DNA from: Pseudofrankia sp. DC12
GTDB taxonomy: Bacteria; Actinomycetota; Actinomycetes; Frankiales; Frankiaceae
Reading direction: 5' to 3'
Length of the DNA stretch: 64,000 nt
Assembly (NCBI RefSeq): GCF_000966285.1
Contig: NZ_KQ031391.1
Coordinates: 802,978 to 866,977, forward strand
The position numbers were made by a program, and so were the translations under genes. Shown piece by piece: positions 288 to 19,492 of this stretch. Position 1 is the stretch's first letter, and each line of letters begins with the position of its first letter. Below the pieces are notes generated by a model, which was not told where the DNA came from, did no database searches, and was given only the letters and a program-made list of their open reading frames with translations.

Positions 288-300
288 CTCTAGATGTTTC
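288..300. promoter_or_regulatory. TCTAGAT-type element in front of an acyl-CoA dehydrogenase remnant
   Basis: CTCTAGATGTTTC sits about 35 bases before the ATG of the remnant at 332. It matches the AT-rich element repeated at 3473, 4463, 8741, 11666, 16607 and 19474. It may be an operator or core-promoter part; the gene it served is dead. Confidence 0.5.
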
Positions 301-331
301 GGTCGAGTCGACGGTGGGTGGCGGCGTTCCG

Positions 332-693
332 ATGCGGTTCAGCTTCGACGAGGGCCAGCTGGCGGTCCGCGACGCCGTGGGCGCGTTCGGCGCCGGCGCC
401 GGGACCGGGGACGCGTCACCCGGGGATGCGTCCCCGGGGACGCGTCACCCGAGAGCGCCGCGGTGGACGAGGCCGCCCAGGCCGCCAGCACGGCCAAGCT
501 GCTGGCTGGCGAGGCCGGCCTCGCCGGGGGCCGGGCCGCCGTGCAGATCCTCGGCGGGATGGGCTTCACCTGGGAGATGCTTCCCCACTACTTCCTCAAG
601 CGGGCCTGGGTGCTGGAGCACCAGTTCGGCACCACGTCGTGGCACGCCGCCCGGCTCGCCGAGTCCCTGGCGGCCGAGATCGCGGCGCCATGA
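332..693 (+). pseudogene. Acyl-CoA dehydrogenase remnant with the middle deleted
   Basis: The 5' part encodes MRFSFDEGQLAVRDAVGAF, a typical acyl-CoA dehydrogenase N-terminus. After a short repeated GACGCGTCACCCGGG-like patch (about 408-452) the coding frame changes. It resumes as a dehydrogenase C-terminus with QILGGMGFTWEMLPHYFLKR, ending ESLAAEIAAP and TGA. The protein should be about 370-400 residues, but only about 120 codons are left and they lie in two frames. The flavin- and substrate-binding core is gone. The TCTAGAT element is still present upstream. Similarity of the tail is to the FadE-like protein at 10473-11621. Confidence 0.8.
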
Positions 694-746
694 TCGTGAG
701 TGCGGCCGGCGCCGGCGTCTGCATCGATCGTCTCAAGGAGCAGAAC

Positions 747-800
747 GTGACGGGTCTCGTCAGTCGTACCGCCGCGGCGACCGGAGCGGGGTCCCGCTGA
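747..800 (+). pseudogene. 17-codon leader, likely the N-terminal stub of a short-chain dehydrogenase
   Basis: A GTG start seven bases after AAGGAG opens VTGLVSRTAAATGAGSR and stops with TGA at 798-800. The TGA overlaps the ATG of the following CoA ligase (TGATG). The peptide closely resembles SDR N-termini of the form MTGLLDGRVAVVTGAGSG, including the start of the TGxxxGxG nucleotide-binding turn, and then ends. It is read here as the surviving stub of an SDR gene that now may act as a translationally coupled leader. The match is short, so the origin is inferred. Confidence 0.5.
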
Positions 801-2269
801 TGGGCGACCCGAATCCCGCGCTCAGCGGCCGCCTCGGCCAGGTGTTCGCACTGGACCCGGCGGCTCCCGCGGTCGAGTTCGAGCGTCACTGGCACAGCTG
901 GGGCGAGCTGGCCGCCACCGCGGACGCGGTCGAGCCGCACGTGGCGGCCGGCGAGCGCGTCGCGCTGCTGCTGCGCAACCGGCCCGCCCAGCTCGGCCTG
1001 CTGCTCGGCCTGCTGCGGGCCGGGGCCTGCGTCGTCGCGGCCAGCCCGGGACGCGGCGTCGACCGGGTCCGCGCCGACCTCGACGGCCTCGCCGTCGCGA
1101 CCGTCGCGGGCGCACCCGAGGACCTTGAGACCTTCGCCCCTCGGGTGCGCTGGTTCGCCAGCGGCGCCCTCGGCACCGTCAGCGTCACCGGCGGGCCCGC
1201 GGCGACGGCTGAGGCGGACCTGCGCCCCGGCGTCGCCGTCGAGATGCTCACCAGCGGCACGACCGGGCCGCCCAAGCGAGTGCCGCTGAGCTACGAGACG
1301 TTCGCCCGCGTGCTCGCCGGCGCCAAGCACTACGAGCGCGGCACCGACACCCGGGTCCGGCTGCGCACCGGGGCCGTCATCGTCAACGCGCCGCTGGTGC
1401 ATCTCGGCGGCCTGTTCCGGGTGCTGCAGTGCGTCAACGACGGCCGGGCGTTCTGCCTGCTCGAACGGTTCCGCGTCGACGAGTGGCTGGACGCGGTCCG
1501 CCGCCACCGGCCGGCGACCGTCAGCCTGGTGCCGGCCGCGCTGCGGATGGTCCTCGACGCAGGCCTCGACCGCGCCGACCTCGCCTCGGTCCGCTCGGTC
1601 ATCTCCGGCACCGCGCCGCTGGCGCCCGAGGACGCCGACGCCTTCCAGGAGCGGTACGGCATACCGGTGCTGACCTCCTATGCCGCGACCGAGTTCGGCG
1701 GCGGGGTCGCCGGCTGGAACCTCGCCGACCACGAGCGGTACTGGGCGACCAAGCGCGGCAGCGTCGGGCGGGCGCACGCGGGCTGCCGGCTGCGCGTCGT
1801 CGACGCCGACACCGGGGCCGAGCTCGGGCCCGGCTCCCCCGGCCTGCTGGAGATCCAGGCGCACCAGCTCGGCGACGGCGCCGGGTGGGTCCGGACCACC
1901 GACCTCGCCCGCCTCGACGCCGACGGCTTCCTGTGGATTCTCGGGCGCGCCGACCAGGCCATCATCCGCGGCGGCTTCAAGGTGCACCCGGGCGACGTCC
2001 GGGCGGCGCTCGAACGCGACCCCCGGGTGCGCGGCGCCGCCGTGGTCGCCCGGCCCGACCCCCGGCTCGGTGCCGTCCCGGTCGCCGCGGTCGAGCTGCG
2101 CCCCGGGGCGGGTGCGGTCAGCGCGGACGAGCTGCTCGCCCAGGCAGCGACCGTGCTCGCCCGCTACGAGCTGCCCGACGAGCTGCGCATCCTCGACGCG
2201 CTGCCGCGGACCCCGTCCGGCAAGCCCGACCTCGGCGCGGTCCACGCCCTGTTCACCACGCACGGCTGA
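800..2269 (+). CDS. Acyl-CoA synthetase / AMP-dependent ligase
   Basis: A 489-residue member of the ANL (AMP-forming CoA ligase) superfamily. It would activate a carboxylic acid with ATP and CoA through an acyl-adenylate. The P-loop TSGTTGPPKR lies near residue 148, TSYAATEFGG (the A5 region) near 293, the hinge/A8 region with GRADQAIIRGGFKVHPGD near 380-398, and the catalytic lysine in PSGKPDL near 473. The N-terminus is short compared with 520-550-residue relatives and lacks the usual first helix. The ATG overlaps the stop of the SDR-like stub, so translation is probably coupled to it. It is the first intact gene of the cluster; the substrate is unknown. Confidence 0.88.
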   Translation: MGDPNPALSGRLGQVFALDPAAPAVEFERHWHSWGELAATADAVEPHVAAGERVALLLRNRPAQLGLLLGLLRAGACVVAASPGRGVDRVRADLDGLAVATVAGAPEDLETFAPRVRWFASGALGTVSVTGGPAATAEADLRPGVAVEMLTSGTTGPPKRVPLSYETFARVLAGAKHYERGTDTRVRLRTGAVIVNAPLVHLGGLFRVLQCVNDGRAFCLLERFRVDEWLDAVRRHRPATVSLVPAALRMVLDAGLDRADLASVRSVISGTAPLAPEDADAFQERYGIPVLTSYAATEFGGGVAGWNLADHERYWATKRGSVGRAHAGCRLRVVDADTGAELGPGSPGLLEIQAHQLGDGAGWVRTTDLARLDADGFLWILGRADQAIIRGGFKVHPGDVRAALERDPRVRGAAVVARPDPRLGAVPVAAVELRPGAGAVSADELLAQAATVLARYELPDELRILDALPRTPSGKPDLGAVHALFTTHG

Positions 2270-2339
2270 GGGCCTGGCGGGCCTGGCGGACCGCGCCTCG
2301 GCGCCGGGGCCGGGCCCGCTTGGCCGACGGGCCCTCGGC

Positions 2340-3443
2340 CTAGGCCGGCGGCGCGGGCGGGAGCAGTACGGGCTTGACGACCTTGCCTGACAGCGACGCC
2401 TCCTCGGCGGCGTTGATCTCGTCGAGCGGGAAGGTCTCGATCAGCCGGTCGAACGGGAACTCGCCGGCCCGCCACCAGTCGATCAGCATGGGGATGACGA
2501 CCCTCGGGTCGGCGCCGCCCTCCAGGATGCCCGACACGGTCTTGCCGATCAGCGCGACCGGGTCGAGGGTGATCGGCTCGGTCTGGATGCCGACCAGGCC
2601 GCAGTGGCCGCCCTGGCGCAGCGCTCCGATCGCGTTGCCGATGACGGCGACGTTGCCGGTGGTGTCGAAGCCGAACTCGGCGCCGCCGCCGGTCAGCGCC
2701 TGGACCTGCTGGACGAGGTCGGCCGCGGCCCCGTCGAGCACGTGGGTGGCGCCGAGCTCGGTGGCCAGCTCCAGCCGGTGGGCGTGCAGGTCGACCGCGA
2801 TGATCGTGGCCGCGCCGACGGCCTTGGCCGCCATGATGGCGGACAGCCCCACCGCCCCCGCGCCGAACACCACGAGGCTCGCGCCGGCCGGCACGGCCAG
2901 CTGGACCAGCACCGAGCCCGCGCCGGTCAGGATGCCGCAGCCGAGCGGCCCCAGCTTCTCCAGCGGCAGGGCCTTGTCGACCACCACGACGTTGCGTTCC
3001 GCCGCGACGCAGTAGGTCGCGAACGAGGACTGGCCGAACCAGCGGGAGGCGATCTCACCACCGGCCGCGTCCCGGACCCCCGTGCTGCCGTCGACCCGGC
3101 GCCCCAGCAGGTTGCGGAGCAGGAACTGGTCGCAGTAGGGCGGTCGGCCGCCGCGGCATTTCGCGCAGTCGCCGCAGGTGTCGAACGACAGCACGACGTG
3201 GTCGCCGACCGCCACCCGGTCCACGCCGGCGCCGACAGCCTCGACCACCCCGGCGCCCTCGTGCCCGGTGATGATCGGGGGTGGCGAGAACGACGCGGTT
3301 CCGCGCGGCACGACGTCCGTGTGGCAGAGGCCCGCCCCGACCACGCGGACCAGCAGCTCGCCCGCCCCCGGCGGGTCGAGCTCGACCTCCTCCAGCACGT
3401 ACGGCCCGTCAGCCTGGCGCAGCACCGCCGCGGTCATCTTCAT
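2340..3443 (-). CDS. Zinc-dependent alcohol dehydrogenase (medium-chain family)
   Basis: A 367-residue NAD(P)-dependent medium-chain dehydrogenase, probably oxidising an alcohol in the neighbouring catabolic pathway. Visible catalytic-zinc ligands are C in GLCHTD, H in GHEGAG and C in LGCGILTGAGSVL. The structural-zinc cysteines are in CGDCAKCRGGRPPYC. The Rossmann motif is GAGAVG (VVFGAGAVGLSAIMAAK). The ATG at 3443 is chosen because GGAGGTC precedes it by about 8 bases; an upstream GTG at 3467 lies closer to the promoter. It is divergent from the GntR regulator at 3622 and shares an AT-rich element with it. The class resembles aryl/acetoin-type alcohol dehydrogenases; specificity cannot be assigned. 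Confidence 0.9.
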   Translation of the reverse strand: MKMTAAVLRQADGPYVLEEVELDPPGAGELLVRVVGAGLCHTDVVPRGTASFSPPPIITGHEGAGVVEAVGAGVDRVAVGDHVVLSFDTCGDCAKCRGGRPPYCDQFLLRNLLGRRVDGSTGVRDAAGGEIASRWFGQSSFATYCVAAERNVVVVDKALPLEKLGPLGCGILTGAGSVLVQLAVPAGASLVVFGAGAVGLSAIMAAKAVGAATIIAVDLHAHRLELATELGATHVLDGAAADLVQQVQALTGGGAEFGFDTTGNVAVIGNAIGALRQGGHCGLVGIQTEPITLDPVALIGKTVSGILEGGADPRVVIPMLIDWWRAGEFPFDRLIETFPLDEINAAEEASLSGKVVKPVLLPPAPPA

Positions 3444-3472
3444 CGACCGACCTCCACTCATAGTCACCTCTA

Positions 3473-3489
3473 TTCATAGATATATCTTC
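3473..3489. promoter_or_regulatory. AT-rich palindromic element between alcohol dehydrogenase and GntR gene
   Basis: TTCATAGATATATCTTC contains the perfect palindrome AGATATATCT. It lies about 30-45 bases upstream of the alcohol dehydrogenase start (leftward) and about 135 bases upstream of the GntR gene (rightward). It belongs to the family of TCTAGATAT-like elements in this cluster. If the GntR protein binds it, this would give autoregulation; that link is inference. Confidence 0.5.
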
Positions 3490-3621
3490 TTCAGTCACGT
3501 AGAGCCACCGACTGTCGGCAGGTCCGGCCGCGGGCGCCGAGGCGGCTGGCACCGGCCGGTACCCTGAGGCGATCGTCCTGCTTCCGGTGCCGGCCGGGAG
3601 CGGCCGACGGAGAAGCAGCCG

Positions 3622-4416
3622 ATGGAGAAAGGGTCGAGCATGGTGGCCGAGCGCCAGGGAGCCCGCGGCAGCGAGCGCCCCGGGCTTCGCGAGAAGCCGC
3701 AGCAGATCGCCGATGAGCTCCGGCGGCTCATCGTCACCGGCGAGCTGGCCGACGGCGAGTCCCTCGGGCACGAGCCCGACCTCGTCGAGCGCTTCGGCGT
3801 CTCCCGCCCGTCGCTGCGCGAGGCGCTGCGCATCCTGGAGGCCGAAGGCCTGATCACCGTGAGGCGCGGCGTGCTCGGCGGCATCGTCGCCCACCAGCCC
3901 AACGGCCGAATGACCGCGCGCACCGCGGCGCTGCTGCTGCAGGCGCGCAACGTGCCGCTCGCCGACGTCTACGACGCCCGCGGCCTGATCGAGCCTGTCG
4001 CCGCCCGGCTGCTCGCCCAGTCCCGGTCCCGCCGGTCGGCGGCGGCTGAGCTGCGGCGGCTCACCGCCGAGCAGCTCGAGGTCATCGACGACCCGGACGC
4101 CTTCGGCCGGGCCAACTCCGCCTTCCACGCCCAGCTCGTCGAGCTTGCCGGGAACCAGACCCTGAGCATCGTCGCCGAGATGCTGAGCGAGATCGTCGCG
4201 CGCGCCGTCGCCGCCGCCAGCCAGCCGGACGACGGCAAGGACGCCGCCGCGACCCGCGCCCGCGGCCTGCGCTCGCAGGCCCGGCTGGCCGTCCTCGTCG
4301 AGGCCGGCGACGCCGCGGCCGCCGAGGCCCACTGGGCCGAGCACATGAAGGTCGTCGGGCGGGTCCTGGTCGCGCAGCGGGCGAAGACCGTGATCGACCT
4401 CATGCAGCACTACTGA
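3622..4416 (+). CDS. GntR-family transcriptional regulator with FCD domain
   Basis: A 264-residue FadR-subfamily repressor. The N-terminal winged helix-turn-helix covers about residues 22-90 and includes DLVERFGVSRPSLREALRILEAEGLI, followed by the wing VRRGVLGG. The C-terminal half (about 100-250) is an all-helical FCD ligand domain with the conserved pattern LIEPVAARLLA, FHAQLVELAGN and HWAEHMK. Such domains usually sense carboxylic acids or acyl-CoA compounds. GGAG precedes the ATG by about 9 bases; a second ATG 18 bases on also has a good ribosome site. It is the only dedicated regulator within the first 21 kb, so it is the best candidate to control the cluster through the shared AT-rich elements. 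That assignment is not demonstrated. Confidence 0.9.
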   Translation: MEKGSSMVAERQGARGSERPGLREKPQQIADELRRLIVTGELADGESLGHEPDLVERFGVSRPSLREALRILEAEGLITVRRGVLGGIVAHQPNGRMTARTAALLLQARNVPLADVYDARGLIEPVAARLLAQSRSRRSAAAELRRLTAEQLEVIDDPDAFGRANSAFHAQLVELAGNQTLSIVAEMLSEIVARAVAAASQPDDGKDAAATRARGLRSQARLAVLVEAGDAAAAEAHWAEHMKVVGRVLVAQRAKTVIDLMQHY

Positions 4417-4542: not shown

Positions 4543-4771
4543 ATGACCATTGACGTGGGCTCCCCGGGAGCCGGCTTACCGGCGCCCAGCTTCCCTGTGT
4601 TCGACGTGGACAACCACCTGTACGAGACCGAGGACGCGCTGACCCGGCACCTGCCGGCGGCCCACCGTGACCTGTTCCGGTTCGTCGAGCTGAACGGCCG
4701 CAAGAAGCTGGACGAACCTCGCCGACCTGCTCGGCGTGACCCGGTCGGCCCCGGCAGCCGGGAAGGCCTGA
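4543..4771 (+). pseudogene. Amidohydrolase (amidohydrolase_2 type) remnant with the middle deleted
   Basis: The first codons give MTIDVGSPGAG and then FDVDNHLYETEDALTRHL, the metal-binding N-terminus typical of the amidohydrolase_2 family (DxDxH-type start). The sequence runs to about KKLD near 4712 and then switches frame into NLADLLGVTRSAPAAGKA and TGA. That tail resembles the C-terminus of the same family, where NAARLxGL-like ends are common. About 75 codons remain of an expected 350-400. A GGAGG lies upstream and the promoter-like element at 4461 is kept. The nearest intact amidohydrolase in the window, at 11697, belongs to a somewhat different subgroup. Confidence 0.75.
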
Positions 4772-4844
4772 CCGCGCCCGGCGCCGCGCCCAGCGGCGGC
4801 GCGGCCCGCGAAGCCCCACCCCTTCACAGCGGGAGGTTCCCGGT

Positions 4845-5648
4845 ATGGGATTCGAGACGATCCAGTACGAGGTCGCCGACCGCGTCGCGACGATCACCTT
4901 CGACCGGCCGGACCGGCTCAACGCGCTGAGCCCGGCCATGATCCGCGAGCTGCGCCAGGCGTACGCCGACGCTGAGGCCGACGACGACGTCTGGCTGCTG
5001 CTGGTGACCGGCAACGGCCGGGCGTTCTGCACGGGCGCCGACGTCGGCGAGATCCCCGCCGACGGCCGGGTGATCTACGACGAGCCCTACCTGTCGACGT
5101 TCCCGCAGTGGGAGGCGCCACAGGAGGGCACCCCGCCGTTCCGGTCGATGACGAAGCCGATCCTGACCGCCGTCAACGGGTTGTGCTGCGGCGCCGGCCT
5201 GGATCTCGTCACCACCGGCGACATCGTGATCGCCTCCGACCGGGCCGAGTTCTTCGACCCGCACGTGAGCATCGGGCTGGTCGCGGGCCGCGAGACCGTC
5301 CGGCTGGCCCGGGCGCTGCCGACCACCGTCGCGCTGCGGATGGCGCTGATGGGCCGCCACGAGCGGATGCCCGCGCAGCGCGCCTACGAGCTGGGGCTCG
5401 TCTCCGAGGTCGTCGAGCACGACCGGCTGTTGGAGCGGGCCTACGAGATCGCGGCCACCGTCAACCGCAACGCCCCGCTGGCGGTGCGCGGCACCCGGCT
5501 GGCGATCCGCCGCGGGCTGGACCTGCCGACGCACGACGCCGAGGTGATGGCGGAGACGTTCCGCGAGCGGGTCGTGCGCACCGACGACGCCAAGGAGGGC
5601 CCGGCGGCCTTCCTGCAGAAGCGCCAGCCGGTCTGGAAATGCCAGTGA
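4845..5648 (+). CDS. Enoyl-CoA hydratase/isomerase family protein
   Basis: A 267-residue crotonase-fold protein expected to act on acyl-CoA thioesters (hydration, isomerisation or ring chemistry). ITFDRPDRLNALS near the start is the signature strand. FCTGADVGE (about residues 61-69) and NGLCCGAGLDL (about 111-121) form the oxyanion hole. At the position that carries the first catalytic Glu in classical hydratases the sequence reads FFDPHVSIGLVAG, so it may not be a standard hydratase. GGGAGG precedes the ATG by about 8 bases. It stands between two pseudogenes, whose promoters may now serve it. Confidence 0.88.
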   Translation: MGFETIQYEVADRVATITFDRPDRLNALSPAMIRELRQAYADAEADDDVWLLLVTGNGRAFCTGADVGEIPADGRVIYDEPYLSTFPQWEAPQEGTPPFRSMTKPILTAVNGLCCGAGLDLVTTGDIVIASDRAEFFDPHVSIGLVAGRETVRLARALPTTVALRMALMGRHERMPAQRAYELGLVSEVVEHDRLLERAYEIAATVNRNAPLAVRGTRLAIRRGLDLPTHDAEVMAETFRERVVRTDDAKEGPAAFLQKRQPVWKCQ

Positions 5649-5943: not shown

Positions 5944-6030
5944 ATGGCCGACCCAGCGCCCCTCGACGCCGGCAGCCCCCAGCACGAGCTTGTCCCCGGC
6001 CCGCGCCACTTAGCCGGAGCCGCGGCGTGA
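5944..6030 (+). CDS. Small ORF coupled to the CoA ligase start
   Basis: A 28-codon frame starts with ATG seven bases after GGAGG and encodes a peptide beginning MADPAPLDAGSPQ. Its TGA overlaps the GTG start of the next gene (GTGA). No family is recognisable. It could be a leader peptide or the stub of a lost gene. The good ribosome site and the overlap suggest it is translated; function unknown. Just upstream the 17-base unit around CCTGAATCTCAGC is repeated twice (about 5820-5850). Confidence 0.4.
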   Translation: MADPAPLDAGSPQHELVPGPRHLAGAAA

Positions 6031-7739
6031 CCGCGCCCGGCCAGACCCGGACGACGCCCGACGAGCCGGCCCCGCCGGCGGACTGGTCACTCCCCGCGCT
6101 GCTGGACGTGATCACGGCGGCGGCGCCCGACCGGGAGATGCTGGTCTGGGGGGACGTCCGGCGCACCTACGCCGAGGTGCGCGGCCGCACCCGTCGCCTC
6201 GGCGCCTTCCTCGCCCGCGCAGGGCTGGGCGCCCGCCGCGAGCGGGCCGGTCTGGAGCGCTGGGAGTGCGGCCAGAGCCCGGTCGCGGTCCTGCTGTCCA
6301 ACTGCCCCGAGTACGTCGAGGCGATGATCGGCGCCTACCGGGCGCGGGCCGTACCGTTCAACGTCAACCACCACTACAACTCCCACGAGATCGGCGCCCT
6401 GCTGGCGGCCGTCGGCGCCGAGGCGGTCGTCTACCACCGCCGGCTGGGCCCGCTGCTCGCCGCCGCCACCCCGCTCGGCGGCCGGCTGCTGCTCGACGTC
6501 GACGACGGCTCGGGAGTCGCGCCACTGCCCGCCTCCACCCCGTACGAGCAGGCGCTCGCGGCGGTGAGCGACGCCGAGGCCGATGCCCTGCCGGCACCCT
6601 CGCCCGACGACCTCTACCTGGTCTGCACCGGCGGCACCACCGGCAAGCCCAAGGGGGTGCTGTGGCGCCAGGGTGACGTCTACGTCGCCGCGATGGGTGG
6701 CTTCGAGGGCGCCACGGCCGAGCGGGTCGCCGCGCTCGTGGCCGTGCCCGGCGGTCCCGCTGGGGCGAGGTCACGCGGCGGTGCCTGGTTCGCCGTGCCA
6801 CCGCTCATGCACAGCGCCGCGCAGTGGACGGCTTTCGCCGGCCTCGCCCTCGGTGTCACGCTGGTCCTGCACGACGACAGCACGCCGTTCGACCCCGGCG
6901 CGGTCCTCGCCGTCGCCGCGCGTGAGCGGGTCACGATGATGACGATCGTCGGCGACGCCTACGCCCGCCCGCTCGTCGAGAAGCTGCGGGCCAGCACCTA
7001 CGAGCTCTCCGCGCTGACCAGCCTGAGCACGGGCGGGGCGACGACCAGCGCGGCGCTCAAGCAGGCGCTGCTGGAGCTGCTGCCCCACCTGACGATCGTC
7101 GACGGCTACGGCGCGTCCGAGACCGGCGGGATGGCGTTCGGCGCCTCGACGAAGAACGCGCAGACCCGCCAGTTCACCCTCGGGCCGGGCGGCGCCGTGC
7201 TGTCCGCCGACCGGTCGCGGTTCCTGCGCACCGACGAGGACGAGATCGGCTGGACCGCCCGTGTCGGACGGGTGCCACTCGGCTACCTGAACGACTCGGA
7301 ACGGACCGAGCAGACGTTCCCGATCGTCGACGGCCGGCGGATCACCGTCCCCGGCGACCGGGCCCGCTATGACCCGGACGGCTCCGGGAAGATCGTCATG
7401 CTCGGCCGCGACGCGATGGTCGTCAACACCGGCGGGGAGAAGGTGTTCGTCGAGGAGGTCGAGGAGGCGCTGCGGCGCCACCCGGACATCCTCGACGCCC
7501 TCGTCGTCGGCCGGCCCAGCGAGCGGTTCGGCGAGGAGGTCGTCGCCCTCGTCCAGCCCCGGCCAGGGGCCTCGCTGTCTCCCAGCGAGGTACGCGAGTA
7601 CGCCAGCCGGACCGTCGCCCGGTTCAAGGCGCCGCGCGCGGTGCTGCTGTGCGGGACGATCGGCCGCCACGCCACCGGCAAGGCCGACTACACCTGGGCC
7701 AGGACGGCCGCCCTGGAGGCCGTGCCGGCGACCACCTGA
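6027..7739 (+). CDS. Acyl-CoA synthetase / AMP-dependent ligase
   Basis: A 570-residue AMP-forming CoA ligase. The P-loop VCTGGTTGKPKGVLW lies near residues 203-217 and the A5 region DGYGASETGGMAFG near 359. The A7/A8 region is RARYDPDGSGKIVMLGRD, then NTGGEKVFVEEVEEAL near 470, and the C-terminal ATGKADY holds the catalytic lysine near 549. The GTG start is chosen because the frame opens there, GGAG lies about 8 bases upstream, and it overlaps the preceding small ORF. It resembles long-chain or steroid/terpenoid-type ligases of actinobacteria. It converges on the echA gene at 7882, with a palindromic repeat between them. Confidence 0.9.
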   Translation: MTAPGQTRTTPDEPAPPADWSLPALLDVITAAAPDREMLVWGDVRRTYAEVRGRTRRLGAFLARAGLGARRERAGLERWECGQSPVAVLLSNCPEYVEAMIGAYRARAVPFNVNHHYNSHEIGALLAAVGAEAVVYHRRLGPLLAAATPLGGRLLLDVDDGSGVAPLPASTPYEQALAAVSDAEADALPAPSPDDLYLVCTGGTTGKPKGVLWRQGDVYVAAMGGFEGATAERVAALVAVPGGPAGARSRGGAWFAVPPLMHSAAQWTAFAGLALGVTLVLHDDSTPFDPGAVLAVAARERVTMMTIVGDAYARPLVEKLRASTYELSALTSLSTGGATTSAALKQALLELLPHLTIVDGYGASETGGMAFGASTKNAQTRQFTLGPGGAVLSADRSRFLRTDEDEIGWTARVGRVPLGYLNDSERTEQTFPIVDGRRITVPGDRARYDPDGSGKIVMLGRDAMVVNTGGEKVFVEEVEEALRRHPDILDALVVGRPSERFGEEVVALVQPRPGASLSPSEVREYASRTVARFKAPRAVLLCGTIGRHATGKADYTWARTAALEAVPATT

Positions 7740-11621: not shown

Positions 11622-11665
11622 CGCCTTCCGTCGTCGCGCACGCCCGACCAGCCGGCCGCCGCCCC

Positions 11666-11683
11666 TTATGTATAGATGTTTTC
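11666..11683. promoter_or_regulatory. AT-rich element upstream of acyl-CoA dehydrogenase
   Basis: TTATGTATAGATGTTTTC lies 45-60 bases ahead of the leftward dehydrogenase start. It shares the TATAGAT core with the other elements of the cluster; leftward it reads TATACAT, which could also be a -10 box. Confidence 0.45.
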
Positions 11684-11696: not shown

Positions 11697-12527
11697 TTAC
11701 TTGGCCTTGGCGCGGTCGGCGAAGAAGAAGGACAGGGCGTTGTCGTAGAGCCAGGCCTGGCGGACCTCGTCGGTGAGGCCCAGGTTCGTGGCCTCCGCGA
11801 GGCAGCGCTCGAACGAGAGCACCGGGTGGTCGGAGGCGAAGATGACCCGGTCGCGGCCCCGGGTCGACATGTAGTGCAGCAGCGAGGCGGGCAGCCGCCT
11901 GGGCGACCAGGCCGACGTCATCAGCCGCAGGTTCCTGTACTTGATCATCAGCCGGATCGCGGTGTCCCACCAGGGGTCGGCCCCGTGGATCATGCAGAGC
12001 CTCAGCTCGGGGAACCGGACGCAGACCCGGTCGAGGTAGATCGGGTTCTGGACCTCGCCGGGGATCGGCGGCCCGGGGATGCCGGTGTTCATGCACAGCG
12101 GCAGGTCGAGCTCGCAGCACTTCGTGTAGAGCGGGTAGTAGACCGCGTCGGTGGGCGGGTACATCCCGTCGCCCCAGAAGCTCGGCCCCACCGTGGCGGA
12201 CGCGACGGGGTAGTCCCGGACGTAGGACTCCAGCGTGCGCAGGGCCGCCATCGGGCGCAGCAGGTTGAAGCCGCCGACGGCGAGCGCGAACCGGTCGGGG
12301 CGCGCCTCGGCGTACCTCGCGGCCCGGTCCGGCCCCTTGCTGGTCCGCGAGATCAGGATCGCCCGCTCGACGCCGGCGGCGTCCATGGCGTCGATCAGCT
12401 CGGGCAGCTCGGGGCTGTGGAAGAAGGACTCGCCACCCTTGAAGTAGTCCTCCTTGACCCGCACCATCCACTCGGGCTGCTTGTCGTCGCCCAGGTGGAC
12501 GTTGACCAGGCAGTCGATGGCCTTCAT
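11697..12527 (-). CDS. Amidohydrolase family protein (amidohydrolase_2)
   Basis: A 276-residue metal-dependent hydrolase of the amidohydrolase_2 (TIM-barrel) family, which includes decarboxylases and ring-opening hydrolases. The N-terminus MKAIDCLVNVHLG departs from the usual DxHxH: the metal-binding pair is replaced by NVH. MIHGADPWW (a barrel histidine) and IFASDHPVLSFERCL (the late barrel aspartate) are present. The ATG overlaps the TGA of the upstream CoA ligase (ATGA), so it is the last gene of the echA > ligase > ligase > amidohydrolase operon. Such proteins recur in actinobacterial sterol or aromatic CoA-catabolic clusters. The chemistry here is unknown. Confidence 0.82.
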   Translation of the reverse strand: MKAIDCLVNVHLGDDKQPEWMVRVKEDYFKGGESFFHSPELPELIDAMDAAGVERAILISRTSKGPDRAARYAEARPDRFALAVGGFNLLRPMAALRTLESYVRDYPVASATVGPSFWGDGMYPPTDAVYYPLYTKCCELDLPLCMNTGIPGPPIPGEVQNPIYLDRVCVRFPELRLCMIHGADPWWDTAIRLMIKYRNLRLMTSAWSPRRLPASLLHYMSTRGRDRVIFASDHPVLSFERCLAEATNLGLTDEVRQAWLYDNALSFFFADRAKAK

Positions 12528-14131
12528 GTCGGCCTCACCTTCCGGGATCTGGCGACACCCTTGTCCCGCAGCAGCCGGCGCAGCGCACCCACGTCGGCCT
12601 TCCCGCTGGCCAGCCGCGGCACCGTGGCCGGGTCGGTAACCACGAGCCACCGCGTCGGGACCTTGAAGCTGCTCAGCCGGGACCTGACCGCCTCGGCCAG
12701 GTCGCCGGCACCGCCGGCCGCGTCCGGGGACACGACGACCAGCGCGGCGACCTGCGGGTCACCCGCCTCGTCGGCGACGTCGGTGACGAAGGCCTCGCGC
12801 GCCCCGGGCAGGGCGCGCAACGCCGTCTCGACCTCGAGCGGGTACACGGTCGCGCCGCTGACCTTGAACATGTCGTCGAGCCGGCCCCGGTACCACAGGA
12901 AGCCCTCGGCATCGAGCACACCGGCGTCGGCGGTCGGGTAGAAGCCGTCGCGGTCGAACACGTCCGCCCGGTGGCGCCCGCAGATGCCGCGCATCAGGTG
13001 CGGCCCGCGCAGCCGGATCTCCCCCTCGGCGCCAGGCGGGAGCGGCCGGCCGGTGACCGGGTCGACGACGCGGACCTCGACGCCCGCGAAGGGCTGGCCG
13101 CAGCTGCCGCGCTTGTCCTCGGGAAGGTCGGTGTCGAGCCGGGAGCCGCAGTACGGGCCGAACGACTCGGTCATCCCGAAAAGGCTCGCCCGCGCCCCCG
13201 CGGCGGGCCGCTGCGCCGCGGGCAGGACCGCGCCGAGGCTGCCCGGCCGCAGCGACGACAGGTCGACGGCCGGGAAGTCCGGGTGCGCCGCGAGCCACGC
13301 CGCCTGGTCGGGCCAGCCGCGGAACAGCGTGACCCGCTCCCGTTCGAGGAAGCGCAGCGTGCGGCCCGGCTCCGGCTCCGCCTCGGTGAGCAGCGTGGCA
13401 CCGGCGACGAGCACCGAGAGCAGGCCGGCGCCGAACCCGCCGGTCCAGAAGAACGGCATCGGGATGTAGAGCCGCTCACCGTGGCCGACGCGCCGGGCGC
13501 CCAGGCTGCTGACGACGGCGCGCAGCGCGTTGCCGTGCGTGTGCAGCACGCCCTTCGGCTCGCCCGAGCTGCCGGACGTGAACAGGACGACGAGGTCGTC
13601 GGCGGGCCGCACGGCCCGTTCGTGGGCGTCGACCAGCGCCGCCGCCACCGCGGCCGTCGGCAGGTCGGCCGAGGTCCAGGCCTGGCACAGCGACGGCACG
13701 CCCGGATGCCGGCGGCCGGCCCGCAGGCGCCCGGCCAGGCCCGGCACCTCGGCCTCCAGGTCGGCGAGGTAGTCACGGCCGCGGAAGGCCGGCACGGCGA
13801 CGAGGTAGGTGACGGCCGCGGCCCGCAGCTGGGCGATCAGCTCCGGCGGGCGCAGCAGCGTCGACAGTGGGACGAGGACCGCGCCGATCCTGGTCACGGC
13901 GAGCGCGAGCACCGCCCAGCCGACGCCGTTCGGCATCACCGATCCGACCCGGCTGCCCTTGCCGACCCCGGCGGCCACCAGCCGGGCCGCGAGCGCCCGG
14001 CTCGCGTCGTCGAGCTGGTGGTAGGTGACCGCCTCGTCGTCGCCGACCAGCGCCCCGAGGCCGCCGTCCTCGCGCCGGCGGACTGCGAGCAGCCCGGAGA
14101 TCGTCAGCGCCGCGGGCTCAGCGGGCGGCAC
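12524..14131 (-). CDS. Acyl-CoA synthetase / AMP-dependent ligase
   Basis: A 535-residue AMP-forming ligase. FTSGSSGEPKGVLHTHGNA is the P-loop, LFGMTESFGPYCG the A5 region, and YPTADAGVLDAEGFLWYRGR with FKVSGATVYPLEVE the A7-A8 hinge. LASGKADV near the C-terminus holds the catalytic lysine. The GTG at 14131 follows AGGGAG and overlaps the preceding ligase by 14 bases. Its sequence parallels the neighbouring ligase at 14118-15764, so the pair looks like an old tandem duplication that has diverged. Confidence 0.88.
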   Translation of the reverse strand: MPPAEPAALTISGLLAVRRREDGGLGALVGDDEAVTYHQLDDASRALAARLVAAGVGKGSRVGSVMPNGVGWAVLALAVTRIGAVLVPLSTLLRPPELIAQLRAAAVTYLVAVPAFRGRDYLADLEAEVPGLAGRLRAGRRHPGVPSLCQAWTSADLPTAAVAAALVDAHERAVRPADDLVVLFTSGSSGEPKGVLHTHGNALRAVVSSLGARRVGHGERLYIPMPFFWTGGFGAGLLSVLVAGATLLTEAEPEPGRTLRFLERERVTLFRGWPDQAAWLAAHPDFPAVDLSSLRPGSLGAVLPAAQRPAAGARASLFGMTESFGPYCGSRLDTDLPEDKRGSCGQPFAGVEVRVVDPVTGRPLPPGAEGEIRLRGPHLMRGICGRHRADVFDRDGFYPTADAGVLDAEGFLWYRGRLDDMFKVSGATVYPLEVETALRALPGAREAFVTDVADEAGDPQVAALVVVSPDAAGGAGDLAEAVRSRLSSFKVPTRWLVVTDPATVPRLASGKADVGALRRLLRDKGVARSRKVRPT

Positions 14132-15764
14132 GCAGCAGCTCCCTGAGGGCGGGCATGTCGATCTTGCCGCTGGACATCGTCGGCACCTCGTCGTCGGCGA
14201 GCAGGACGAACCTGCGCGGCACCTTGTAGGAGGACAGCCGCCCGGCCAGCTGGCGGCGCAGGTCGCCGGCGTCGACGTCGCCCCCGGACGGCACCCGGAC
14301 CGCCGCCGCGACGATCTGCCCACGCGCCGGGTCGTCGAGGCCGACGACGTGCGCTGTGAGCCCCGCGACGTCGCGGATCGCCGCCTCGACCTCGCTCGGC
14401 GACACGTTCGCGCCGCCGGTCTTGATCAGGTCGCCGCGCCGGCCGTGGAAGTAGAAGAGGCCCTCGTCGTCGACGGCGAACAGGTCGCCGGTGTGGAACC
14501 ACCCGTCGGGGTCGAACACCTCGTGGCGTTCCCGGCTGTAGTAGCCCTCCATCAGGAACGGGCCCCGCAGCCACAGCTCCCCCACCTCGCCGACGCCACA
14601 TTCCGAGCCATCCGGCTCGGCGACCCGGGCCTCGAAGCCCGGCGCCGGGCGCCCGAACGAGCCGCGGCGCCGCTCCGGCTGGTCGCCCTCGTCCGCGCTG
14701 ACCAGGCAGACGCTGCCGGCCTCGGTCATCCCGAGCATCTGGTGGCGCAGCAGCGGGTCGACGGGCCGGACGTCGGCGCGCATGATCGAGTAGAGGTTGC
14801 CGCGGCGGATCGAGGACAGGTCCCGGCGGGCGAACGTCGGGTCGGCCCGCAGGCCCGCCACCGACTGCGCGTAGCCGTTCACCATGGTCGGGCGCTCACG
14901 TTCCAGGACGTCGAGCACATCCGCCGGATCGGACGCGTTCGAGCAGACCAGCCGGCCACCGGCCACCAGGGTCCCGAGCAGCGCGTAGGCGAACCCACCG
15001 ACCCAGAAGAACGGCGAGTTCGAGAAGAGCGCCTCCTCGGGGGTGTAGCGGCGGATGTCGTTCAGGTTCGCCAGATGGCGGATCAGCGCGCCCTGGGTGT
15101 GGACCACGCCTTTCGGCGCGCTTGTCGACCCGGACGTGTGGACGATGACATGACGGTCACTCGGCGCCAGGGACTGTTCGACCGCCAGCGCCAGGTCGTC
15201 GTCCACCGCGACGCCGTGGCGCGCCAGCGCGGCCAGCGTCCACGCCGGCCCGACCCGGCCGTCGTCGACGGCGTCCGCGCCGGCGGCGAAGAACACGCGC
15301 CGCAGCACCGGCATCGACGCGGCCAGCAGCGGCTGCCCGGCCTGGAGATCAAGATCGTCGACGGCCGCCCCGAGCGCGGCGACGTAATCATGGCCGCGGA
15401 AGCCGCGGGCCGCGAGCAGCACCCCGACGTCCGCGTTGTACAGCAGCCCGCGCAGCTCCGCGCTGGTCGAGAACGTGCTCAGCGGGACCGTGACCGCGCC
15501 GGCCCGGGCGGCGGCCAGCCACCCGACGACGAAGTCGCTCCCGTTCGGGAACAGCAGCCCGACGTGGGTGCCCCGGCCGACGCCGAGCGCCAGCAGGCCC
15601 CGGGCCAGCTCCCGCGACCGCCGGTCGGCTTCGGCGTAGGTGAGGACGTCGTCGTCGGTCACCAGCAGGACCCGCGGGCCGTACTGGGCGGCCCGCTCCC
15701 GCAGCAGGGCCGCGGCCGTCAGCGGTAAGCCGTCGCCGGCCTCGATCGTGGTCTCGATCGCCAC
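14118..15764 (-). CDS. Acyl-CoA synthetase / AMP-dependent ligase
   Basis: A 548-residue AMP-forming ligase. VHTSGSTSAPKGVVHTQGA is the P-loop with a less common SAPK, LGMTEAGSVCLVS the A5 region, WFHTGDLFAVDDEGLFYFHG and DLIKTGGANVSPSEVE the A7-A8 region, and MSSGKIDMPAL the catalytic lysine segment. The GTG start overlaps the echA stop (TAGTG). Together with the next ligase it is organised as a translationally coupled pair. Confidence 0.9.
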   Translation of the reverse strand: MAIETTIEAGDGLPLTAAALLRERAAQYGPRVLLVTDDDVLTYAEADRRSRELARGLLALGVGRGTHVGLLFPNGSDFVVGWLAAARAGAVTVPLSTFSTSAELRGLLYNADVGVLLAARGFRGHDYVAALGAAVDDLDLQAGQPLLAASMPVLRRVFFAAGADAVDDGRVGPAWTLAALARHGVAVDDDLALAVEQSLAPSDRHVIVHTSGSTSAPKGVVHTQGALIRHLANLNDIRRYTPEEALFSNSPFFWVGGFAYALLGTLVAGGRLVCSNASDPADVLDVLERERPTMVNGYAQSVAGLRADPTFARRDLSSIRRGNLYSIMRADVRPVDPLLRHQMLGMTEAGSVCLVSADEGDQPERRRGSFGRPAPGFEARVAEPDGSECGVGEVGELWLRGPFLMEGYYSRERHEVFDPDGWFHTGDLFAVDDEGLFYFHGRRGDLIKTGGANVSPSEVEAAIRDVAGLTAHVVGLDDPARGQIVAAAVRVPSGGDVDAGDLRRQLAGRLSSYKVPRRFVLLADDEVPTMSSGKIDMPALRELLRAAR

Positions 15765-16579
15765 TAGCGGCCGCCGAAGTTCGGGGCGCGCCGTTCCTGG
15801 AAGGCCGCGAGCCCCTCCCGGAAGTCGCCGGTGCGGGACGACAGCTCCAACGCGTAGGCCTCCTGCTCCATCGCCTCGGCCAGCCCGAGCTCCAAGCCCC
15901 GGTTGACCGACCGCTTGGTCAGCCCGACGGCGACGGTCGCGGCCTGGCCGAGCTCGGCGACCAGGGCGGCGGTGGCGTCGCCGAGCTCGGCGTCGGGCAC
16001 GGCCCGGTAGATCAGGCCCCAGGCCGCGGCCTCGGCACCGGACAGCCGGCGCCCCAGGATGAGCAGTTCCTTCGCCCGGGCCACACCGACCAGCCGGGGC
16101 AGCAGCCAGGTGGCGCCGCTGTCCGGGCTGAAGCCCCGGGCCAGGAAGGGCTCCCAGAAACGGCTGGTCTCGGCGGCCACGGTGAAGTCCGCGGCCAGCG
16201 CCAGCTGGAACCCGAGCCCGGCCGCGTGCCCGCGCACCGCGCAGACGACGGGCAGCTGGATCTCGGTGATGAGCTGGACGAGCCGGTGCGCCTGCAGGGC
16301 CGTGCGCCGCTGCACGCTGCCCGTCCGCGGCCGCTCGCCGCCCTTGGTGTTCGACGCGGCCCAGTCGGCGCCAGAGCAGAAGTCGGGCCCGAGGCTGGCC
16401 AGGACGACGACGCGCAGGCCGTCGTCGACGGCCGCGTCCTCCAGCGTCTCGATCAGCCGCCGCACCGCGGCCGGGCCGAGGGCGTTGCGGCGCTCCGGGC
16501 GGTTCAGGCCGATCCGCAGCACGCCGCCGTCGCGTTCGACGACGACGCCAGCGCCCGTGGCGGATCCCATGCCGTTCAC
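15764..16579 (-). CDS. Enoyl-CoA hydratase/isomerase family protein (PaaG-like)
   Basis: A 271-residue crotonase-fold protein. NRPERRNALG, FCSGADWAAS and HAAGLGFQLALAADF are the signature elements. ARGFSPDSGATWLLPRLVG has the PDSG aspartate typical of PaaG-type enzymes. It is the first gene of the four-gene leftward operon. The GTG at 16579 begins seven bases after a TACGAT box, so the mRNA may be leaderless; an in-frame ATG at 16570 is the alternative. Confidence 0.9.
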   Translation of the reverse strand: MNGMGSATGAGVVVERDGGVLRIGLNRPERRNALGPAAVRRLIETLEDAAVDDGLRVVVLASLGPDFCSGADWAASNTKGGERPRTGSVQRRTALQAHRLVQLITEIQLPVVCAVRGHAAGLGFQLALAADFTVAAETSRFWEPFLARGFSPDSGATWLLPRLVGVARAKELLILGRRLSGAEAAAWGLIYRAVPDAELGDATAALVAELGQAATVAVGLTKRSVNRGLELGLAEAMEQEAYALELSSRTGDFREGLAAFQERRAPNFGGR

Positions 16580-16586
16580 CGGGGCG

Positions 16587-16624
16587 ATCGTATCGAGGCT
16601 GCGCTTAAATGTCTATATGTATTG
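16587..16624 (-). promoter_or_regulatory. Operon promoter with AT-rich element
   Basis: Read leftward, TAGACA (16615-16610) and TACGAT (16592-16587) are separated by 17 bases, and the GTG of echA begins seven bases later. The -35-like hexamer is embedded in the AT-rich element AAATGTCTATATGTATTG (16607-16624) shared across the cluster. Confidence 0.6.
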
Positions 16625-16768: not shown

Positions 16769-16911
16769 GGACAGGCCCGGACCGGCCAGACCAGGACCGG
16801 CCAGGCCCGGCCAGGCCCGGACCGGACAGGCCCGGACCGGCCAGACCCGGACCGGCCAGACCAGGACCGGCCAGACCAGGACGGTCAGCCCAGGACGGTC
16901 AGCCCAGGACG
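16769..16911. repeat. GC-rich minisatellite of 10- and 15-base units
   Basis: About 14 irregular head-to-tail units built from GGCCAGACCAGGACC, GGCCAGGCCC and GACAGGCCC words fill this stretch. The last units (CAGCCCAGGACGGT) run into the 3' end of the CoA ligase, whose stop codon at 16899-16901 lies inside a repeat unit. Confidence 0.85.
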
Positions 16912-18422
16912 TCCGGCGGCAACAGGCGGCGGGCGGCCTTGCCGGTGGGCAGGCGGGGGAACTCGTCGAGGAACCGGACCGACCGGGGCGCCTTGAAGCG
17001 GGCGAGGCGAGCGCGGGAGTACGCGATGAGCTCGGCCTCCAGCGCGGCCGGATCGGCCGGCGGGCTCGCGGGCCGGACGACCGCCCGCACCGACTCGCCC
17101 ATCTCCGGGTCGGGGACGCCGATCACGACGACGTCCGCGACCTGGGGATGCCGGATCAGGACGTCCTCCAGCTCGCGCGGGTAGATGTTGACGCCACCCG
17201 AGACGATCATGTTGGTGGCACGGTCGGTCAGGTAGAGGTAGCCGTCGGCGTCGACATGGCCGATCTCGCCGTAGGTGGCCCAGCCACGGTCGTCGAACAT
17301 GGAGGCGGTCTTCTCCGCGTCGCCGTGGTACTCGAAGCGGGGCGCCGCCTCGAAGAAGACCCGCCCGTCGGCGCCGGCCGGCAGCTCGTTCCCGGCCTCG
17401 TCGACGATGTGGACCGCGCCCTGCATGGAGCGCCCGACGGAGCCCGGGTGGGCGAGCCACTCCTGCGGCCCGATGAAGCAGAACCCGACGCCCTCGCTGC
17501 CTGCGTAGTACTCGTAGACAACCGGGCCGAGCCACTCCAGCACGGCCCGCTTGACGTCGGCCGGGCACGGCGCGGCGGCGTGGACGAGCGTCTTCAGGCT
17601 GGACAGGTCGTGGCCCAGGCGCTCCTGCTCGGGCAGCTTCAACAGCCTGACGAGGTGGGTCGGGACGACCTGCGCCATCGTGACCCGGTGCCGCTCGATC
17701 GCCTGGAGGAACTCGACGGGCTCGAACCGCTCGGTGAGCACGACCGTCCCGCCGATCCGGTGGATCGCGTTGGTCCAGCCAGACGGGGCCGCGTGGTAGA
17801 GCGGGGCAGGGCTCAGGTAGCGGGTGGTCTCGTCGCCGCCGAACAGGAACCGGACCATCGCCGTGAACCCCCTCGGCGCGCCGAGGGGGCCGCCGACCGC
17901 GGGCGGCTTGATCCCCTTGGGGCGGCCGGTGGTGCCCGACGAGTAGAACATCCACGCGCCGTCGGCCTCGTCGTCGATCGGCGTCGGCGCGAAACCGGCG
18001 ACGGCCTGCTCGTACGGCTCGAACCCGTCGACCGGCCCGCCGACGGACAGCCGGATCGTCGGGCCGGCGCCGGCCAGCTCGGCCACGATGTCGGCGCAGG
18101 ACGCCGACGCGATCAGCGCGTCGGCGCCGCAGTCCTCGACGATGTACCGGGCCTCGGCGGCGGACAGGTGCCAGTTGATCGGCGTGACCAGCAGGCCGGC
18201 GCGCAGCCCCGCCCAGGTGACCTCGAAGTACTCGGCCCGGTTCTCCATCAGCACCGCGACGTTGGCGCCGATGCCCAGCCCGGCCGCGCGCAGCGCGTGC
18301 GCGAGCCGGTTCGACCTCGCCTCCAGCTCCGCGTAGGTGATCGTGACGTCATCGGCGATCACCGCGGGCCGGTCCGGCGCCACGGCGGCGAGCCACTTCG
18401 GATGCTCGAGCTGCGTCGTCAC
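16899..18422 (-). CDS. Acyl-CoA synthetase / AMP-dependent ligase
   Basis: A 507-residue AMP-forming ligase of the fadD13/caiC-like type. FYSSGTTGRPKGIK is the P-loop, EYYAGSEGVGFCF the A5 region, WATYGEIGHVDADGYLYL and ATNMIVSGGVNIYPRELE the A7-A8 hinge, and LPTGKAARRLL the catalytic lysine segment. The GTG at 18422 follows GGGAGAG; another GTG 12 bases upstream is possible. It is downstream of echA (18445-19266) with a 22-base gap, so the two form an operon. The final codons overlap a minisatellite. Confidence 0.9.
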   Translation of the reverse strand: MTTQLEHPKWLAAVAPDRPAVIADDVTITYAELEARSNRLAHALRAAGLGIGANVAVLMENRAEYFEVTWAGLRAGLLVTPINWHLSAAEARYIVEDCGADALIASASCADIVAELAGAGPTIRLSVGGPVDGFEPYEQAVAGFAPTPIDDEADGAWMFYSSGTTGRPKGIKPPAVGGPLGAPRGFTAMVRFLFGGDETTRYLSPAPLYHAAPSGWTNAIHRIGGTVVLTERFEPVEFLQAIERHRVTMAQVVPTHLVRLLKLPEQERLGHDLSSLKTLVHAAAPCPADVKRAVLEWLGPVVYEYYAGSEGVGFCFIGPQEWLAHPGSVGRSMQGAVHIVDEAGNELPAGADGRVFFEAAPRFEYHGDAEKTASMFDDRGWATYGEIGHVDADGYLYLTDRATNMIVSGGVNIYPRELEDVLIRHPQVADVVVIGVPDPEMGESVRAVVRPASPPADPAALEAELIAYSRARLARFKAPRSVRFLDEFPRLPTGKAARRLLPPDVLG

Positions 18423-18444
18423 GCTCTCTCCCACGAGGCGCTCG

Positions 18445-19266
18445 TCAGCGGCCGTTGGACGAAGGCTTCGCGAGCTGCTCCTTCATGCCGTCGAGCAGCA
18501 TGAGGATCGGCATGCCGCTCTCGGACAGCGCGTGGCCGTGGCCGGTCTGGTGGATGTCGAAGACCGACTGGACCGCCGCGTAGAAGCCCTGCACGTCGAG
18601 CGTCTGGTTGACGGCCCGCTTGGCCTGGCGCAGCGCGAACGGGTGCTTGGTGGCGATCTCGGCCGCCAGCGCCCTGGTCACGTCGCGCAGGTCCGCAAGC
18701 GGCACGACCCGGTTGACCATGCCGACCCGCTCGGCCTCGTAGGCGTCCATCTTGCGGCCGGTGAACAGCAGCTCCTTGGCCTTGCGCGGGCCCATCTCCC
18801 AGGTGTGGCCGTGGTACTCGACGCCGCCGATGCCCATGTTCACGACCGGGTCGGAGAACGTGGCGTTGTCCGCGGCGATGATCAGGTCGCACGGCCAGGC
18901 GAGCAGCAGGCCGCCGGAGATGCAGACGCCCTGGACGGCGGCGATCGACGGCTTCGGCACGTTGCGCCACCGCAGGCTGTACTCCAGGAACCGCCGGGAC
19001 TCGATCTCGTAGATGCCCTCCAGCGTCCACTTCGGCGGCGCGCCGTTGGAGCCGCCCACGCCCTTGATGTCATGGCCGGCGGAGAAGTGCTTGCCGTTGG
19101 CACGCAGGACGATGACCCGGGCCTCGGGGTCGTCCGCGGCCCGCCGCCACGCCGCGTCGAGCTCGTCGAGCAGCTCCAGCGTCTGGGCGTTGGCGGCCTC
19201 CGGCCGGTCCAGGGTGATGGTCGCGATCGCGTCGCTGACCTCGTAGTCGATGAACGTCTTCGTCAC
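18445..19266 (-). CDS. Enoyl-CoA hydratase/isomerase family protein
   Basis: A 273-residue crotonase-fold protein. TLDRPEAANAQTLELL is the signature strand; FSAGHDIKG and QGVCISGGLLLAW form the oxyanion hole. The segment after it (VVNMGIGGVEYHGHTWEMG) departs from standard hydratases and resembles the group that includes actinobacterial sterol-side-chain hydratases. The GTG at 19266 follows GGAGGCC by 6 bases. An in-frame ATG at 19446 lies seven bases after a TAGCAT box and could start a leaderless 333-residue form, but the extra codons have poor third-position GC bias, so it is not preferred. Confidence 0.88.
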   Translation of the reverse strand: MTKTFIDYEVSDAIATITLDRPEAANAQTLELLDELDAAWRRAADDPEARVIVLRANGKHFSAGHDIKGVGGSNGAPPKWTLEGIYEIESRRFLEYSLRWRNVPKPSIAAVQGVCISGGLLLAWPCDLIIAADNATFSDPVVNMGIGGVEYHGHTWEMGPRKAKELLFTGRKMDAYEAERVGMVNRVVPLADLRDVTRALAAEIATKHPFALRQAKRAVNQTLDVQGFYAAVQSVFDIHQTGHGHALSESGMPILMLLDGMKEQLAKPSSNGR

Positions 19267-19453
19267 GACCGGCCTCCAGGACTCCTCGAGCACGGCGTTG
19301 CCTCGATTGACGCCGATGGGTACGACGCCGCGCAAGCAGTCGGGAGATCCGCGCGCCGCGAGCCGGCCTGGTGCCGCCGCGACGCCGCGCCGAGGGCCGA
19401 TCGAGGCCGGGCGCGCCGCGGCCCGTCGGGCCTGAGCGCTTCGCATTGCGGCG

Positions 19454-19492
19454 ATGCTAGCCAGCGGGCGCAGTAATGTCTAGATATATACG
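19454..19492. promoter_or_regulatory. Bidirectional promoter/operator with TCTAGATATATA element
   Basis: AATGTCTAGATATATACG (19475-19492) is the best match to the shared element. Leftward, TAGACA (19482-19477) and TAGCAT (19459-19454) are 17 bases apart and drive the echA-ligase operon. Rightward it stands about 60 bases before the divergent echA at 19549, where the TATATA part could act as a -10 box. Confidence 0.6.

Follow-up and report, generated by a model that had tools for sequence, protein, structure and literature searches.

The stretch analysed here is a 64,000-nucleotide window (bases 802978–866977) of the 6.88-Mb, single-contig genome of Pseudofrankia sp. DC12, and has a GC content of 72.8%. 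Bases 1–22000 hold a cluster of genes for acyl-CoA catabolism, in which short AT-rich palindromes, the subject of this work, stand before genes on both strands. Five acyl-CoA ligase and five enoyl-CoA hydratase/crotonase genes lie there, together with genes for acyl-CoA dehydrogenases (two intact, one broken), an alcohol dehydrogenase, an amidohydrolase, an Rv3169-family protein and a GntR/FCD regulator, the candidate reader of the palindromes. Further regulators in the window are a MarR protein at 21806 and a TetR protein at 23418. The genes of the cluster are as follows.

800–2269, plus strand: AMP-binding acyl-CoA ligase (Pfam PF00501/PF13193, scanned as the longer frame 104–2266)
2340–3443, minus strand: zinc-type alcohol dehydrogenase (Pfam PF08240/PF00107)
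3622–4416, plus strand: GntR/FCD transcriptional regulator, proposed site binder (Pfam PF00392, PF07729; co-occurrence with the sites)
4845–5648, plus strand: enoyl-CoA hydratase/isomerase (Pfam PF00378)
6027–7739, plus strand: acyl-CoA synthetase (NCBIfam NF005863, above cut-off)
7882–8676, minus strand: enoyl-CoA hydratase/isomerase (Pfam PF00378)
8785–10095, plus strand: acyl-CoA dehydrogenase (Pfam PF02770/PF00441/PF02771)
10473–11621, minus strand: acyl-CoA dehydrogenase (Pfam PF00441/PF02771/PF02770)
11697–12527, minus strand: amidohydrolase, Amidohydro_2 (Pfam PF04909)
12524–14131, minus strand: acyl-CoA ligase (Pfam PF00501)
14118–15764, minus strand: acyl-CoA ligase (Pfam PF00501)
15764–16579, minus strand: enoyl-CoA hydratase/isomerase (Pfam PF00378)
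16899–18422, minus strand: acyl-CoA ligase (Pfam PF00501)
18445–19446 (start possibly 19293), minus strand: enoyl-CoA hydratase/isomerase (Pfam PF00378)
19549–20601, plus strand: crotonase-family protein (NCBIfam, best NF006128, below its cut-off)
20653–21768, plus strand: Rv3169 family protein (NCBIfam NF053593, above cut-off)

The original prediction, made from the window alone, described seven AT-rich elements with one shared core. All seven lie where it placed them, and six share one motif, being copies of a single 18-bp palindrome, WWWAYATCTAGATRTWWW; the seventh, at 3473, does not. The distance of about 25–80 bp between element and start codon likewise holds in the window. The six predicted operators, listed without strand and with their matrix scores, are:

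283–300: GTTACCTCTAGATGTTTC, before the broken acyl-CoA dehydrogenase gene; 24.0 bits
4460–4477: GATAAATCTAGATATATT, just 3' of gntR; 29.6 bits, 18/18 bases kept in two relatives
8739–8756: TTAGTATCTAGATATTTC, divergent intergenic region, overlapping a leftward −35-like box (TAGATA, 18 bp, TAGTAT); 29.0 bits, 18/18 bases kept in two relatives
11665–11682: CTTATGTATAGATGTTTT; 23.1 bits, with 33–34-bit versions in relatives
16606–16623: TAAATGTCTATATGTATT, overlapping a leftward −35-like box (TAGACA, 17 bp, TACGAT); 26.5 bits
19473–19490: GTAATGTCTAGATATATA, divergent intergenic region, overlapping a leftward −35-like box (TAGACA, 17 bp, TAGCAT); 31.4 bits

The scores come from an 18-position palindromic matrix built from sites in other genomes of the family, with the own genome excluded. 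Three of 58 exact sites (L034, L057, L069) were dropped because no gene could be seen close downstream; the other 55 gave 73 orientations, 71 of them with full flanks and 59 after removal of those at least 75% alike. The matrix used 56 of these 59 oriented promoters, or 43 when each site is counted once. Apart from the six sites, no place in the 64 kb reached 10 bits: a word that overlaps the 16606 site came next with 8.7, followed by the 3473 element with 8.3. The top score in 60 Markov-simulated windows was 11.5 bits, against 23–31 for the six. The same six were recovered with the 43 distinct sites, or with the 40 that remain without the orthologous clusters L033 and L048. In two relatives, 18, 18 and 17 of the 18 bases are conserved at 4460, 8739 and 19473; at 11665 and 16606 these relatives carry stronger versions (33–38 bits), and the window cores have drifted. 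Three loci were compared, but L001, which did not extend to the 11665 and 16606 sites, and L048 are apparently the same contig of one genome, each having a length of 108,654 bases, so that the three represent two relatives. For the site at 283, no aligned counterpart was seen in the three relative loci tried. Judged by sequence, these elements are a real, conserved set of predicted operators.

We then asked where the motif occurs in the rest of the own genome. Allowing up to two mismatches, ATRTCTAGAYAT has 52 places, versus 47 for a reversed control; with zero or one mismatch, three remain in 6.88 Mb, all within the window cluster, and the sole perfect one is the 19473 site. The pattern AYRTCTAGAYRT with at most one mismatch has 23 places, six in the window cluster, four at 6.49–6.53 Mb and another 13 that are mostly GC-rich variants. 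Beside the 6.49–6.53 Mb sites lie genes for an amidohydrolase, SDRs, a luciferase-like monooxygenase, RibD_C and a cupin protein. Places at 4.79 Mb are clustered by pattern, yet reach only 12–14 bits by matrix, and were set aside. Separately, three weaker operator-like places (22.5, 16.7 and 14.3 bits) were seen at 6852000–6858000 (L112), near a Rieske KshA_C protein and an acyl-CoA dehydrogenase-like frame, possibly a third piece of the regulon at 6.855 Mb.

The presence of exact sites follows the presence of the regulator. In a sample of 35 genomes of the family, 14 carry a GntR protein at least 57% identical to that of the window (next best, at most 47%), and 12 of these carry two or more paralogues, up to four per genome. 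The 14 genomes hold 58 exact sites, with 13 of them having at least one, and the 21 others hold three, in three genomes. This corresponds to 0.47 versus 0.02 sites per Mb (nominal binomial p 9e-15; per-genome Fisher p 5e-6), whereas a reversed control pattern gave 14 versus 8 sites (p 0.2). Measured by matrix, 48 sites of at least 18 bits were found in 361 kb around 19 GntR genes and none in 132 kb of 20 control loci, a comparison that is not independent, as the matrix was partly built from the same places; two of the 22 control loci (L092 and L099, with three and two such sites) had been excluded as GntR-associated. A site of at least 18 bits lies within 5 kb at 14 of the 19 GntR loci and within 2 kb at 11. 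In a wider sample of 396 genomes of the phylum, an exact match occurs in 74, mostly one or two each with a maximum of six, and a GntR homologue at E 1e-60 or better in three. The proposal of a single-regulator regulon, raised on the window alone, thus finds support in the comparison of genomes.

The placement of the sites was analysed with 57 exact sites of GntR-bearing genomes, the 58 less the window's own site. None lies wholly within a called gene, although three overlap a gene end, and 53 are at most 300 bp upstream of a gene, with a site-to-start range of −4 to 288 bp. Among 22 control places, 13 were inside genes and five upstream, and two control words overlap strong matrix matches at GntR loci. 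The 72 downstream genes scanned, of which one (L073) comes from a genome without GntR and many are orthologous to one another, include 19 enoyl-CoA hydratases, 10 Amidohydro_2 proteins, eight acyl-CoA dehydrogenases, seven DAP_DH_C, four SDR, four luciferase-like, three AMP-binding and three RibD_C proteins, among the matches listed, which cover 25 of 39 families. As predicted, the sites stand before genes, many of which, by a count that covers only the genes behind the sites, are for acyl-CoA or related catabolic enzymes. Palindrome symmetry, variable positions relative to the start and service to divergent genes all point to operator-like behaviour.

Two observations concern the sites themselves. 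The reversed control word TATAGATCTATA at L092 (about 3468–3485) and L099 (about 3500–3517) overlaps a 25-bit operator match with a TATA-like centre; centres of this kind may be compatible with the motif. Two contigs of one genome (L026 and L029) both end five bases past the same operator, and their near flanks are identical as well; this stretch recurs in two other genomes (L039, L043), and the divergent promoter region may be duplicated, breaking the assembly.

To characterize the candidate reader, the product of 3622–4416 was analysed by domain and fold. It has an N-terminal GntR winged helix-turn-helix (wHTH) domain (PF00392, 59.2 bits, residues 27–84) and a C-terminal all-helical FCD domain (PF07729, 56.8 bits), with helices predicted from residue 95 on at moderate confidence. 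Foldseek returned GntR/FCD regulators as the best matches of its AlphaFold model, which is too uncertain for claims about the pocket (mean predicted local distance difference test score 74, predicted TM-score 0.58). By both domains and by its nearest solved structures, the protein is a GntR/FCD regulator of the FadR subfamily. A GntR protein of Frankia sp. AgB1.9 matches it with 96% identity, and FGVSRPSLREALRILE is invariant among 18 orthologues. Some FCD proteins have a metal site of one Asp/Asn and three His (PMC7797058). N165, H169 and H241 are invariant in the 18 orthologues and align with D, H and H of 2di3; for the third His, no counterpart was seen. By alignment, Pro52 stands at a position like Arg35 of FadR. 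Whether the missing Arg goes with the missing GT/AC of the operator was considered, but this was not used as evidence, because a second protein of the same genome (L021, 42–46% identical) also lacks the Arg.

Distant relatives show the sites and the regulator in more compact arrangements. In two metagenome-assembled genomes (MAGs) of Acidimicrobiia (G430 and G431; loci L012 and L013) and in a genome of the same phylum but another class (G416; L114), the only exact sites, four, lie 2–11 kb from the GntR gene. At L114, a 32.9-bit site lies between a crotonase gene and a divergent, operon-like run that ends in GntR. This run consists of dehydrogenase, hydratase, ligase and amidohydrolase genes whose products are 62–86% identical to their best matches in the window, with the exception of two genes at 36 and 39% and one unmatched. 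Ten unmatched genes of the three loci were scanned and none is a regulator by Pfam (one had no match), within a scan that covered part of the genes and with a gene caller that misses some, the L012 GntR included. Further genes of these compact operons (L013, 5377–6018 and 10785–11849; L114, 7569–8219) encode a thioesterase-like protein, by a weak match, and, at L013 next to GntR, an APH-type phosphotransferase.

A further relative, G426, of the same class but another family, has a GntR 52% identical to that of the window, with the same helix (FGVSRPSLREALRILEA stretch). In 20 kb searched there, four ACCTCTAGAGGT-like places (0, 1, 1 and 2 mismatches) lie within 5 kb of GntR, versus a null mean of 0.35. 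The outer bases thus differ between the window type, ACATCTAGATGT, and the G426 type, ACCTCTAGAGGT. At L115 (9199–13818), variant palindromes of the latter type surround the 52%-identical GntR gene and are a possible co-evolved operator.

The remaining features of the window are a weak element and two dead genes:

3469–3486, no strand: weak, possibly decayed operator between the alcohol dehydrogenase gene and gntR; 8.3 bits, 13.7 at the same place in relatives
332–693, plus strand: remnant of an acyl-CoA dehydrogenase gene, with its start kept, its middle lost and its tail from 487 (tblastn and reading of the sequence)
4543–4830, plus strand, end approximate: remnant reading like the start of an amidohydrolase gene (family by reading of the translation, no family search)

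The 3473 element scores 8.3–9.8 bits, the level of chance, and in the relatives' version its CTAG core is replaced; it was rejected as a full site and is at best a decayed one. The two dead genes that the original prediction had recognized are there. For the first, tblastn with three relatives of 326–342 amino acids matched their last 64–67 residues to 487–687; for the second, a short frame from 4543, the assignment is by reading only. Both retain a good operator in front (283 and 4460). The arrangement suggests a single-operon regulon that dispersed while retaining its operators, even before dead genes.

Taken together, the elements are very probably operators of the local GntR protein, which would repress acyl-CoA catabolism until an inducer binds. 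One regulator probably controls the whole gene set through these palindromes. In the proposed mechanism, a dimer of the GntR/FCD protein would bind the 18-bp palindromes; without inducer it would sit on the promoters and block RNA polymerase, covering the −35-like box at three of them. The CoA ligases of the cluster would activate the substrate, and an acyl-CoA or similar product would bind the FCD domain, releasing the regulator so that the separate transcription units switch on together. Binding, dimerization, repression, an acyl-CoA inducer and, in some relatives, autoregulation are the parts that we infer. The inducer is perhaps an acyl-CoA or the free acid, by analogy with FadR and from the enzymes encoded.

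Several results weigh against operators read by the local GntR. The 57% identity cut was chosen after the gap in the list had been seen, and the genomes compared are related, so the p-values are optimistic and independence is overstated. The distance from an exact site to a close GntR gene is at most 5 kb for six of the 58, at most 10 kb for 12 and at most 20 kb for only 21. Another 30 sit on other contigs, which would place most of the proposed regulon away from the regulator gene. One genome (G018) has two GntR orthologues and no exact site, with weaker ones near both (26.6 and 31.1 bits). Three loci (L004, L007 and L015) have no site of at least 18 bits in the fetched stretch, and that of L014 is 6.9 kb off. 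Among the MAGs, the one exact site of G432 is on another contig and G433 has none. In the promoter region of the window's own gntR, the weak 3473 element is the only one present. The 23 one-mismatch places of AYRTCTAGAYRT in the own genome are fewer than the 56 of the reversed control, and the signal is therefore one of quality and clustering, not of number. Finally, with a motif lacking GT...AC, GntR would be an atypical reader.

This last point also favours a different transcription factor as the binder, with GntR merely travelling with the same catabolic genes, since GT...AC is the signature of FadR-subfamily operators (PMC4494728). The MarR and TetR genes of the window offer candidates, and for 37 of the 58 sites the same contig has no close GntR gene within 20 kb. 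At L114, however, the run from site to GntR contains, among called genes, no regulator but GntR; its unmatched gene resembles a thioesterase, by a match below cut-off, and GntR is followed by a gene for a beta-lactamase-fold protein. In G426, moreover, GntR and the TCTAGA core are both present in 20 kb that contain no close homologue of any other window gene. We regard another reader as quite improbable. A GntR that activates, or represses at some promoters and activates at others, is unlikely too, if a little easier to entertain. E. coli FadR acts in both ways, sites near −35 can suit activation and the site positions vary. With a −10 box at +22, the centre of the palindrome would coincide with the −35 box, about 35 bases before the expected start, which would suit occlusion instead, and PMC7797058 describes Atu1419, an FCD relative, as a repressor.

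The original prediction had itself raised the alternative that the elements are core-promoter parts, −35 boxes and not regulator sites. The leftward geometry on which it rested is present: at 16606, 8739 and 19473, TAGAYA is followed by TANNAT with spacers of 17, 18 and 17 bp. Over 59 oriented promoters, TANNNT at 17-bp spacing (+22) occurs in eight, versus at most five at any other place outside the motif, and several of the eight are alike over a longer stretch, leaving fewer independent cases. The fixed spacing to a −10 box of a sigma-70 core element is thus confined to 8 of 59, and an operator that in some cases coincides in part with a −35 box is the likelier reading of the palindrome. 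One half can serve as −35 at part of the sites, but as a general account the alternative fails: symmetry extends over 16–18 bp, several sites lie between divergent genes, the distance to starts is variable, and the motif is rare in family genomes without GntR. A core-promoter-only reading was rejected on palindrome symmetry and variable spacing, and we consider it very unlikely. Chance AT-rich words in GC-rich DNA have in their favour the score of the 3473 element and an own-genome one-mismatch total not above control. Against them stand the maximum of the simulated windows, which refutes chance for six of the seven elements, and the conservation of 17–18 of the 18 bases in two relatives at three sites; the probability of chance is close to nil.

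If GntR binds as proposed, the regulator represents another exception to the GT...AC rule for FadR-subfamily operators, and the natural change of outer bases in a 52%-identical orthologue would help to decode how the wHTH reads DNA. For this large group of acyl-CoA catabolic genes, found in bacteria related to nitrogen-fixing symbionts, the analysis supplies a regulator, the DNA code that it would read and a list of genes; the substrate could be sought through what releases the regulator. On balance we lean, by a narrow measure, towards a new class of the FadR subfamily that reads a CTAG-centred palindrome without GT...AC. It would be conserved in Acidimicrobiia as well as in the Frankia group and, as the ACCTCTAGAGGT form with other outer bases, in a genome of another family. 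An ancestral operon would have been broken up in the Frankia group, each fragment keeping its operator, and up to four paralogues would share the operator code. Among the papers listed by searches of the open-access literature, judged mostly by their listing, there was no report of a CTAG-centred operator with a GntR protein.

The organization resembles that of KstR/KstR2-type actinobacterial regulons, in which a single regulator serves numerous operators scattered before genes for CoA ligases, hydratases and dehydrogenases; KstR and KstR2 are TetR proteins with other motifs, unlike the GntR/FCD protein here. The best solved relatives by sequence and fold are LldR/CGL2915 (2DI3), NanR, PdhR and E. 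coli FadR, which share the GntR wHTH and FCD domains. For operators of the FadR subfamily, Suvorova et al. 2015 (PMC4494728) give palindromes as usual and a consensus of TKGT/ACMA boxes with GT and AC 2–3 nt apart, naming NanR and BioR (TTATMKATAA) as exceptions. The CTAG-centred WWWAYATCTAGATRTWWW is palindromic but has no such boxes, which describe the usual operator and are not a condition of membership. The VanR-group protein Atu1419, whose site is ATGTATACAT, is likewise an FCD repressor with a short palindrome at or between promoter boxes, in a hydroxycinnamate-degradation region; the formula (N)yGT(N)xAC(N)y covers its site (PMC7797058) but not the present operator. BioR is alike in belonging to the FadR subfamily and in reading an AT-rich palindrome without GT...AC (PMC4494728). 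Its site is 10 bp long with a two-base centre and serves biotin genes, whereas the operators described here span 12–18 bp around a four-base CTAG centre and would serve acyl-CoA catabolism.

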